Source of the DNA: a virus
Length of the DNA stretch: 38,890 nt
Direction: 5' to 3' (one strand)
IMG/VR virus record: IMGVR_UViG_3300008450_000130
Coordinates: 1 to 38,890 of that record
Shown here one piece after another: positions 8,970 to 13,479 of this stretch (its first letter is position 1; the number at the start of each line of letters is the position of its first letter). Under the pieces are notes generated by a model, which was given only the letters and a program-made list of their open reading frames with translations, had not been told where the DNA came from and did not search any database. Made by a program: the position numbers and the translations under genes.

Positions 8970-9566
8970 TTATGCTGCTGCTTTTAATGGCGCTGGCAAT
9001 TCGATCCAGGCGGGCCGGTTTAGATTTTTATGCAGATCATGGCGCAACGGCATAATGACGCCAATTGCATTTTCATTTTCATAGCGCACTAATGCGCTCA
9101 TGCCTGGGCCATTCTGTAACACGCTGGCCTTGCCGCCTTCGATTAATGCGCCGATCTTATCAAAATCTACTAAATAGGTATTATTAAAATCATTGCCTTG
9201 TATGCCGGATACGCTATTGGGTATGACGCGGCGATAATCCGGAAAAACTCCGTCGGTAATTAATCCGCTGATAGACTGGCCGGCGCTGGCAAGCGTAACA
9301 TTCCCGGCGTCTATTGTTATTTCAATGTATACGGATTTAGTTTTAACGGCCGCCTCGATTAATGCGCGAGGTATTAAGTTTTTAATGTTTGGCGCACTTT
9401 CGGCCGGCAAGTTTATACATATTAAACGATGGCCGTCAGTCGCAGCTGCGATTATGCCATTAGCACTTGATTCAAAATGCACTCCGTTTAGATAATAGCG
9501 CACGTCATTTTTAGCAGCGCATAATAGCAGCGCTTTTAATTCATTGGTTTTAATTGTGAATTGCAT
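8970..9566 (-). CDS. DnaN-like (beta sliding clamp) protein, shortened
   Basis: 198 aa. Three blocks match bacterial beta clamp: DVRYYLNGVHFE at residues 21-32, ATDGHRL at 42-48 and FPDYRRVIP at 108-116, in the order and spacing of the central domain of DnaN. The N-terminus (MQFTIKTNELKALL) aligns with the beginning of that central domain, so the first clamp domain is absent and only part of the third appears to remain. Bacterial clamps are about 370 aa dimers with six domains per ring. A two-domain protomer would need a trimer to close a ring, or this may be a non-ring decoy or adaptor. Start supported by AAGGGAA. It lies in unit L2, not with the polymerase. Confidence 0.85.
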   Translation of the reverse strand: MQFTIKTNELKALLLCAAKNDVRYYLNGVHFESSANGIIAAATDGHRLICINLPAESAPNIKNLIPRALIEAAVKTKSVYIEITIDAGNVTLASAGQSISGLITDGVFPDYRRVIPNSVSGIQGNDFNNTYLVDFDKIGALIEGGKASVLQNGPGMSALVRYENENAIGVIMPLRHDLHKNLNRPAWIELPAPLKAAA

Positions 9567-10696: not shown

Positions 10697-11081
10697 TGTC
10701 ATGGATTGGCAATAGATTGGCAATAGATTGGCAATTGTGGCGGATCGTGCAAAGGCACAGAGCGCAAAGGTTTTAGAGCTTTATTGGCAATATTGTCATT
10801 TTATTTTATAGATATATAGAAAAGTATATATATAAGGTATGCAGACACGAAAGGCGCAAATGCCAGCGACTAAAATTGTCATGGCAATATTGCCAATATG
10901 ACCAATAAATTCTCGCCGCGCATTTTGCACTAAGCATAATTTCAGCACTTAAAACCAAATGACAATATTGCCAATGATTTTCAAATGACAATATTGCCAA
11001 TGATTTCTAAATGACAATATGACCAATAAGCGCCAGGCCAGCAGCAAATAAAACTCACATGGCAATATGGCAATATGACCA
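10697..11081. repeat. iteron/operator-like array (TGRCAATATTGCCA dyads)
   Basis: Three tandem 11-bp units ATTGGCAATAG (10705-10737, third ends TTG) are followed by 14-bp dyads: TGGCAATATTGTCA 10785-10798, perfect TGGCAATATTGCCA 10882-10895, and TGACAATATTGCCA 10960-10973 and 10986-10999. Variants ending ATGACCA occur at 10891-10904, 11012-11025 and 11068-11081. The copies beginning AAATGACAATAT at 10957, 10983 and 11009 have an exact 26-bp period. The stretch is AT-rich and lies between divergent units, so a replication origin (iterons) or a cooperative operator are the two obvious readings. No coding frame here is convincing. Confidence 0.85.
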
Positions 11082-11137
11082 ATGCACTCAGCCGGCTGCG
11101 TACTGCGATCAGCTGCGCGCCCGCCAGCCCACTAGCC

Positions 11138-11373: not shown

Positions 11374-11397
11374 TCAATCGACTTAAGGAGAATTACC

Positions 11398-11469
11398 ATG
11401 TGGACAACACCAGCAGCTACAGAAATGCGTTTCGGTTTTGAAGTGACAATGTACGTGATGAACAAGTAG
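11398..11469 (+). CDS. pqqA: PqqA, coenzyme PQQ precursor peptide
   Basis: A 23-residue peptide: MWTTPAATEMRF then GFEVTMYVMNK. It has the length and landmarks of canonical PqqA: W2, P5, R11, G13 and the EVTMY core with Glu15 and Tyr19, the two side chains joined by PqqE and converted to PQQ. The start has an excellent AAGGAG 7 bases upstream and the gene has its own terminator. No pqqB, C, D or E is in the genome, so the peptide must be processed by host enzymes. PQQ is the cofactor of methanol dehydrogenases (MxaF, XoxF) and other periplasmic quinoproteins, so the gene looks like an auxiliary metabolic gene boosting cofactor supply during infection. Alternatives: a decoy substrate blocking the pathway. 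Identity is strong; effect is inference. Confidence 0.93.
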   Translation: MWTTPAATEMRFGFEVTMYVMNK

Positions 11470-11485
11470 TAACATATTTGTTACC

Positions 11486-11506
11486 AAGGGGGCTTCGGCC
11501 CCTTTT
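11486..11506 (+). terminator. UUCG-loop terminator after pqqA
   Basis: An 8-bp GC-rich stem (one G-U pair) closed by a TTCG tetraloop and ending in TTTT. A second 6-bp hairpin GTAACA/TGTTAC (11469-11484) lies between it and the stop. This would make pqqA largely a separate short transcript, or set pqqA expression well above the structural genes that follow. Confidence 0.88.
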
Positions 11507-11545
11507 GCTATTGACACCACGCATGTAAACCAATACCATGCGCTA

Positions 11546-11950
11546 ATGACATTCCTATCGATACCTTTTACGCCACGCGAGGTAAAAGCCACCGAATCGC
11601 GTTTACAGGCGATATACGACGCAGCCAAGTTGGGGCTAAAGAACGACTCATTGGCCTTAGCCGCTGGTATGTTGCCATCCGAGTACCGGCAACTGTGCCA
11701 GCTAGACCCCGTAGCGGAGATGGCGGCGCAGAAAGGTAAGGCAGACGGTGAACGTGAAATGGCCCAGGTGCTAATCGCCTCGGCCAAGGACGGTGACGCT
11801 AAGTCGGCACTGGCCGTGCTACAGCATGCACACGCATGGACGGCTAAGACCGAGATCAGTGTGGATGTGTACCAAAAGATAAGTATTACTCAGGCATTAG
11901 CCGAGGCTCAATCGCGTATCATTGAAGGCACCGTCGTAGACAACCAATAA
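11546..11950 (+). CDS. terminase small subunit
   Basis: 134 aa by position and sequence: a short helical protein directly upstream of and overlapping the large terminase (TAATG at 11948-11952). An N-terminal HTH-like segment (NDSLALAAGMLPSEYRQL, about residues 33-50) would bind the packaging site. The C-terminal part (ISITQALAEAQSRIIEG) would contact the large subunit or oligomerise. There is no recognisable ribosome binding site before the ATG and no other in-frame start upstream, so initiation may be weak. TTGACA at 11513-11518 is present but has no good -10 box. Confidence 0.82.
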   Translation: MTFLSIPFTPREVKATESRLQAIYDAAKLGLKNDSLALAAGMLPSEYRQLCQLDPVAEMAAQKGKADGEREMAQVLIASAKDGDAKSALAVLQHAHAWTAKTEISVDVYQKISITQALAEAQSRIIEGTVVDNQ

Positions 11951-13479
11951 TGCAACTACCTATATATAGTTCGGACGAAGAACAACTCCTCATGTCAAGG
12001 CTGTGGGATCCGCGTGTTGCGGACGACCCTGAAGCGTTCGTGCTGTTCGCGTTCCCGTGGGGCCAACCTAACACGCCACTGGCTAAGTTCAAAGGGCCAC
12101 GCACCTGGCAGCGCGAGGTGTTAAGAACGATAGCCAAGCACATCAAGGACAACCGAGGCGAGGTCGACATGTCGACACTGCGTGAGGCGGTCAGTAGCGG
12201 ACGGGGTATTGGGAAGTCGGCGCTAGTCAGTTGGCTCATAATGTGGATGTTATCGACAAGGATAGGAAGCTCAGTTGTTGTCAGCGCCAACAGTGAGTCG
12301 CAACTGCGGTCAGTCACCTGGGGTGAGTTGACTAAGTGGCAGGCCATGATAATAAACTCGCACTGGTGGGAGATCTCGGCGACCAAGCTGGTGCCAGCGA
12401 AATGGGTGTGCGAGCTAGTGGAGCGTGACTTGAAAAAGGGTACGCGGTACTGGGCGGCAGAAGGCAAGCTGTGGTCGGAAGAAAATCCTGACAGTTACGC
12501 CGGTGTCCACAACCACGACGGGATGATGTTGATATTTGACGAGGCAAGCGGTATACCTGACACGATATGGTCAGTGGGCGCGGGCTTCTTTACAGAGAAC
12601 ATATTAGATCGGTATTGGTTTGCGTTCAGCAACCCGCGTCGCAACCAAGGGTATTTCTTCGAGTGCTTTAACTCTAAACGGGACTTTTGGCATGGCAGAC
12701 AAATTGACGCGAGGCAAGTCGAGGATACGGATAAAGCGGTATATGAACAGATTATTGCCGAGTATGGCGAGGACTCTGCACAGGCGCGGGTCGAGGTATA
12801 CGGTGAGTTTCCATCGGCAGGTGAAGACCAGTTTATCAGTCCGACATTGGTCGAGGACGCTTTCAAACGTGAGAGATATAAGGATACGTCTGCGCCGATT
12901 GTTATCGGGGTCGACCCTGCAAGAGGCGGGGCAGATAGCACGGTCATCGTCGTTCGCCAAGGCCGTGACATCGTGGCCATAAAACGCTATCAAGGCGAGG
13001 ACACAATGACCGTCGTTGGCCGAGTGATTGAGGCCATAGAAGAATACAAACCAGTGATGACCGTCATCGATGAGGGCGGACTAGGGTACGGGATATTGGA
13101 CAGGCTAACCGAGCAGCGGTACAAGGTGCGCGGTGTGAACTTTGGTTCACGGGCTAAGAACTCGATAATGTGGGGCAACAAGCGGGCCGAGATGTGGGGC
13201 GCGATGCGGGAGTGGTTACGCAGCGCCAGCATACCGGAGGATAGGAAATTAAAGTCTGACTTGACAGGCCCGATGAAAAAGCCTAACAGCAGCGGGACGA
13301 TATTCTTAGAAGGCAAGAAAGAGATGAAGGCCAGGGGCATGGCAAGTCCGGACGCAGCAGACGCGTTATGCGTGACGTTTGCGTTCCCTGTAGCCCATCG
13401 AGAATATAGGGTTGACAACGCGCCCCGTAAGTCGTATGCTAATGGTAGCGGAGCATCCAGCTCTTGGATGGGGAGTTAG
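11950..13479 (+). CDS. terminase large subunit
   Basis: 509 aa DNA-packaging motor. ATPase domain: Walker A SGRGIGKS at residues 83-90, Walker B MMLIFDEAS with D197/E198. RNase H-like nuclease domain: GVDPARGGADST (Asp322), VIDEGGLGYGILDRL, and DAADAL near 468-473 with Asp471 as the third metal ligand. Length and motif order are normal for TerL. It cuts and translocates concatemeric DNA into proheads through the portal encoded downstream. Circular permutation of the assembled genome fits headful packaging, but the packaging strategy is not proven by the sequence. Confidence 0.95.
   Translation: MQLPIYSSDEEQLLMSRLWDPRVADDPEAFVLFAFPWGQPNTPLAKFKGPRTWQREVLRTIAKHIKDNRGEVDMSTLREAVSSGRGIGKSALVSWLIMWMLSTRIGSSVVVSANSESQLRSVTWGELTKWQAMIINSHWWEISATKLVPAKWVCELVERDLKKGTRYWAAEGKLWSEENPDSYAGVHNHDGMMLIFDEASGIPDTIWSVGAGFFTENILDRYWFAFSNPRRNQGYFFECFNSKRDFWHGRQIDARQVEDTDKAVYEQIIAEYGEDSAQARVEVYGEFPSAGEDQFISPTLVEDAFKRERYKDTSAPIVIGVDPARGGADSTVIVVRQGRDIVAIKRYQGEDTMTVVGRVIEAIEEYKPVMTVIDEGGLGYGILDRLTEQRYKVRGVNFGSRAKNSIMWGNKRAEMWGAMREWLRSASIPEDRKLKSDLTGPMKKPNSSGTIFLEGKKEMKARGMASPDAADALCVTFAFPVAHREYRVDNAPRKSYANGSGASSSWMGS

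Follow-up and report, generated by a model that had tools for sequence, protein, structure and literature searches.

A pqqA gene in a podovirus genome and its probable role as a substrate-only auxiliary metabolic gene in phages of Methylophilaceae

A short pqqA frame beside the terminase genes

The window analyzed here spans an entire IMG/VR virus record, 38,890 bases (38.9 kb) long. It encodes replication proteins (helicase, exonuclease, DNA polymerase, and primase), packaging and head proteins (terminase, portal, scaffold, and major head protein), and proteins for DNA ejection, a tail spike, and a fiber, a gene content consistent with a podovirus. No integrase was found among the open reading frames searched, which include nearly all of those of at least 200 amino acids, and the podovirus looks lytic. 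Its rightward packaging and structural block opens with a frame of only 23 codons, whose surroundings are as follows.

11385 to 11390, plus strand: Shine-Dalgarno sequence AAGGAG, 7 nt 5' of the pqqA ATG
11398 to 11469, plus strand: pqqA, 23 codons and a stop, translated as MWTTPAATEMRFGFEVTMYVMNK
11383 to 11787, minus strand: spurious antisense frame of 134 amino acids with a TTG start, which masks pqqA and matches no family
11486 to 11504, plus strand: terminator-like hairpin AAGGGGGCTTCGGCCCCTT, 16 nt 3' of the pqqA stop
11511 to 11539, plus strand: sigma-70-like promoter TTGACA-17-TACCAT before the packaging genes, a consensus match only
11546 to 11950, plus strand: terminase small subunit, assigned from its position and from how its counterpart in phage DSL-LC05 is annotated, with no PHROG match
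11950 to 13479, plus strand: terminase large subunit (TerL), used to delimit the clade for scoring pqqA presence

The original prediction identified this frame as pqqA from its ribosome binding site and a set of PqqA landmarks, and W2, P5, R11, G13, E15, and Y19 are indeed all present in the translated peptide. Profile searches agree: the peptide exceeds the curated cut-offs of both PF08042 (Pfam; 40.3 bits, E = 3e-10, cut-off 21.1) and TIGR02107 (NCBIfam; 38.8 bits, E = 5.6e-10, cut-off 20). It is a full-length, free-standing PqqA, 23 residues long and bounded by a start and a stop codon of its own, and its E15-V-T-M-Y19 core leaves intact the Glu-x-x-x-Tyr residues that are the source of pyrroloquinoline quinone (PQQ). 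A PDB search with the peptide returned no relatives.

The same prediction held that routine gene callers could miss the gene and that the longer frame on the other strand was spurious, and both points are borne out by the lack of a family match for the antisense frame and by the phage annotations described below. The oversight is explained in part by PHROGs, in which no family matches the peptide. As also anticipated, pqqA stands alone: PqqE was not found in the window, and pqqBCDE do not lie next to pqqA, an adjacency that is not defining for PqqA. The gene nevertheless lies inside a bona fide viral genome, with terminase, portal, major head protein, and DNA ejection genes.

Given the hairpin that follows its stop, pqqA may be transcribed as a monocistronic unit. 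The hairpin is a weak signal by itself, with 1 found versus 1.8 expected in shuffles; similar GC-rich inverted repeats occur 3' of pqqA in clade members L046 and L282.

Two other features of the window were recorded. A partly palindromic repeat (TGRCAATATTGCCAAT / TGGCAATATGACCAAT) recurs about nine times at positions 10700 to 11085, within a noncoding region of about 800 nt between divergent modules; the copies are candidate replication iterons or regulator operators. The minus-strand gene at 8970 to 9566 matches PHROG 3007, which bears the name RusA-like resolvase, as well as PHROG 947 (DNA polymerase processivity factor); if its product is a sliding clamp, as it may be, the name of PHROG 3007 is doubtful.

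Distribution and conservation of viral pqqA

We gathered relatives of the window's TerL without reference to pqqA and scored the loci whose upstream sequence reached 700 nt or more. At TerL identities of at least 95%, pqqA is present in 8/8 loci in a single shared slot; among sister loci, with identities of 79 to 85%, it is present in 0/55, and it appears nowhere in 11 longer sister records (0/11). GC content is 45 to 46% in four sampled clade members and 48 to 60% in sixteen sampled sisters, a gap consistent with different hosts. Within the clade, pqqA has a pN of 0.009 versus a pS of 0.37, values that are unbiased by any search for pqqA because the loci were collected via TerL. Only 1 of 12 variable codons alters an amino acid (T4K; binomial P ~1e-7), and the noncoding flanks diverge strongly. 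PqqA of the window clade is under strong purifying selection and is maintained by selection in the virus, a mark of auxiliary metabolic genes.

To survey other phages, we searched 50,697 phage records with the window peptide by tblastn. Matches were obtained in P19250A, MEP301, MEP401, MEP402, Venkman, and four Melnitz isolates and, outside the isolates, in one metagenomic podovirus from Manatee Spring. The P19250A peptide is identical to that of the window:

KX815270.1, 28085 to 28153, minus strand (L003, 3517 to 3588): unannotated pqqA of P19250A, 100% protein identity to the window peptide

Two matches assigned to an Acinetobacter phage were rejected as bacterial contigs. These "Acinetobacter phage MD-2021a" records (CAKLQF020000010.1 and CAKLQH020000055.1; L270 and L271) hold a full pqqABCDE operon with ordinary chromosomal genes and look mislabeled.

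Once bacterial contigs are removed, PqqA in this collection is confined to Methylophilaceae phages and the one metagenomic podovirus, and every Methylophilaceae phage isolate that the collection returned (nine records) carries it. HIM624-A, MEP431 to MEP434, and Venkman EXVC038S, named in the taxonomy and perhaps outside the searched collection, are not among the matches. Pelagibacter phage HTVC008M, a relative of Melnitz (PMC9004378), is present in the collection and is likewise not among the tblastn matches. In none of the nine isolate records, nor in the Manatee Spring record, does the gene bear a pqqA annotation; in the Melnitz and Manatee Spring records, an antisense "hypothetical protein" overlies it. 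The neighbors of pqqA in these phages are recombination genes, a tRNA-Leu gene, or downstream structural genes. Because these neighbors differ, the contexts are unrelated. Identity to the PqqA of P19250A and of host bacteria, together with conservation in its own clade, confirms that the window frame is not a chance one, and phages of Methylophilaceae seem in general to top up the PQQ precursor.

Degenerate DNA patterns for pqqA were used to scan IMG/VR. The first scan gave at least 120 matches, nearly all of those listed being true PqqA frames. A sub-pattern with CGC as the arginine codon accounted for 11/120 among the matches listed in that scan and by itself gave at least 120 matches; extrapolated on the assumption that the first scan is a fair sample, the number of carriers in IMG/VR comes to about 1,300 or more. 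Glu15 and Tyr19, whose conservation in sister phages the original prediction had made a test, are kept in 135/135 viral copies from a scan that left positions 15 and 19 free. A Shine-Dalgarno-like motif lies 5' of 247/255 viral pqqA genes versus 6% of random ATGs.

Across 256 viral pqqA loci (2.1 Mb of contig stretches, some short of whole genomes), we detected no PqqC, PqqD, PqqE, or methanol dehydrogenase. A smaller set of viral loci likewise lacked the pqq genes in a search whose host positive controls did detect them, the controls applying to the pqq genes alone. A PqqE search of IMG/VR, which reaches close relatives only, gave one pattern match and no homolog. Where their gene content is visible, viral loci appear to bring the PqqA substrate only. 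Viral PqqA peptides with other C termini (IANR, INNR, IHNR, and INASN) were seen at loci such as L010, L031, L038, L073, and L090 and possibly come from phages of other PQQ-making hosts.

Methylophilaceae hosts and the probable role of the peptide

We scanned genome contigs for the phage-type PqqA C terminus. Bacterial contigs with this C terminus belong to Methylophilaceae or to unclassified betaproteobacterial or proteobacterial bins, and the commonest PqqA form among them, with 56 copies, is the window peptide itself, so the proposed comparison with Methylophilaceae genomes ended in identity. The window's presumed host is a member of the Methylophilaceae. PqqA is present in 149/150 Methylophilaceae genomes at 1 to 12 copies; a published account gives 3 to 12 copies of pqqA versus typically single copies of the other pqq genes, the extra copies standing apart from the pqq operon (PMC4109929). 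Such multiplication of pqqA, with the rest of the pathway typically single copy, is compatible with a need for extra precursor dosage. PqqE scores over its family cut-off in 4/5 host genomes tested, the fifth being a small single-cell assembly, and methanol dehydrogenase-type enzymes are present in 3/3 host genomes tested. Arg11 is encoded by CGT in 122/126 host copies, while AGA is also freely used in viral copies, among which the CGC count is inflated by the CGC-specific scan; since viral codon use at this position differs from that of the host, the viral copies seem to be old residents of phage genomes and not recent captures.

PQQ synthesis consumes PqqA one for one. Its Glu and Tyr are cross-linked by PqqE with PqqD, and other Pqq proteins complete the cofactor, which PQQ-dependent (Mxa/Xox) methanol dehydrogenases then use. 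A peptide identical to that of the host, purifying selection, carriage by several unrelated Methylophilaceae phages, and the absence of processing enzymes together point to a genuine viral pqqA, which the phage probably retains as an auxiliary metabolic gene that feeds substrate alone to host PqqBCDE. The phage would transcribe pqqA during infection, and host PqqBCDE would convert the extra viral precursor to PQQ; periplasmic methanol oxidation could then be kept going while host transcription drops, supplying electrons and carbon for making virions. Because PqqA is consumed one for one and hosts multiply pqqA rather than the enzymes, the amount of precursor could plausibly become limiting in infected cells, and the viral peptide may in this way raise PQQ and sustain methanol oxidation. 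Two observations count against supply: hosts already hold several pqqA copies, and the position of the gene, with its bearing on expression timing, differs among phages.

Those two observations are also what would favor a second role for viral PqqA, perhaps that of a small regulator or a signal, to which PQQ supply would be subordinate: the gene is retained in phages whose hosts hold 1 to 12 copies, and its genomic positions vary. We consider this unlikely, as the window peptide is the same as the host's, its core bears no virus-specific change, and the pattern of conservation agrees with the known enzymology. Somewhat less likely still is a decoy that occupies PqqD/PqqE, throttles PQQ synthesis, and switches off methanol metabolism in the host or some process linked to PQQ. 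Abundant substrate might in principle saturate PqqD/PqqE, and the absence of the pathway enzymes from viral loci suits such a role; however, titration is a weak alternative because the window peptide equals the host substrate letter for letter, and both cross-linked residues are present in every viral copy, whereas a decoy would be freer to drop them. Conserved short genes often serve phages as integration sites, and the near-identity to the host gene could mark a nonworking attachment site or recent host DNA, but we reject this very improbable explanation because no integrase was found among the window frames searched and identity to host DNA ends at the coding sequence (0.58 outside it versus 0.583 for shuffled flanks), and strong purifying selection, the conserved Shine-Dalgarno motif, and the lack of related prophages in 150 Methylophilaceae genomes (a lytic phage would leave none anyway) also stand against it.

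Auxiliary supply of the substrate by the phage is therefore the reading that we carry forward. We lean, with less assurance, toward the broader view that a standalone cofactor-precursor peptide is near-obligatory in Methylophilaceae phages and that unrelated lineages acquired it repeatedly on entering this host family. If so, viral pqqA would represent a substrate-only auxiliary class exploiting a RiPP-type pathway of the host, and the host family could be predicted from its presence; it also offers a simple sequence marker for assigning hosts to uncultured phages. Methylophilaceae (OM43, LD28/Methylopumilus, and Methylotenera) are important methanol oxidizers in coastal and fresh waters, and if their phages routinely supply PQQ precursor, infection directly affects methanol carbon flux. 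That pqqA is unannotated in nine isolates and matches nothing in PHROGs implies that small-ORF auxiliary genes are systematically overlooked.

Viral pqqA among known systems

Viral PqqA in methylotroph viruses is already on record in a single report. In 2020, the T4-like viral population VP_266 from Lake Baikal was found to encode PqqA together with a viral methanol dehydrogenase, and with Methylophilaceae as its predicted host, support of methanol oxidation was proposed (PMC7678222). That report says that P19250A encodes none of the methanol oxidation genes of VP_266, a statement contradicted by the unannotated PqqA that tblastn reveals there. Elsewhere, a list of P-cycling genes carried by viruses of reservoir sediment includes pqqA (PMC13188868); PQQ goes unmentioned in the MEP301 and MEP401/402 papers, and the Melnitz paper refers to it solely as a supplement to the medium. 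The breadth, host linkage, selection, and standalone-substrate pattern of viral PqqA appear to be new within the open-access papers searched.

The window resembles VP_266 in its viral pqqA, its predicted Methylophilaceae host, and the proposed support of methanol oxidation; VP_266, however, is T4-like and has its own methanol dehydrogenase, whereas the window is a podovirus with pqqA alone. Compared with the bacterial PqqA of Methylophilaceae, the window encodes the same 23-amino-acid peptide with the same E15-V-T-M-Y19 core, and many host copies are likewise short standalone genes, but the window copy sits among phage packaging genes, away from pqqBCDE. Like classical auxiliary metabolic genes such as cyanophage psbA, viral pqqA is host derived, is under purifying selection, and would sustain host energy metabolism; unlike psbA, its product is neither an enzyme nor a photosystem protein but a precursor peptide that is consumed.
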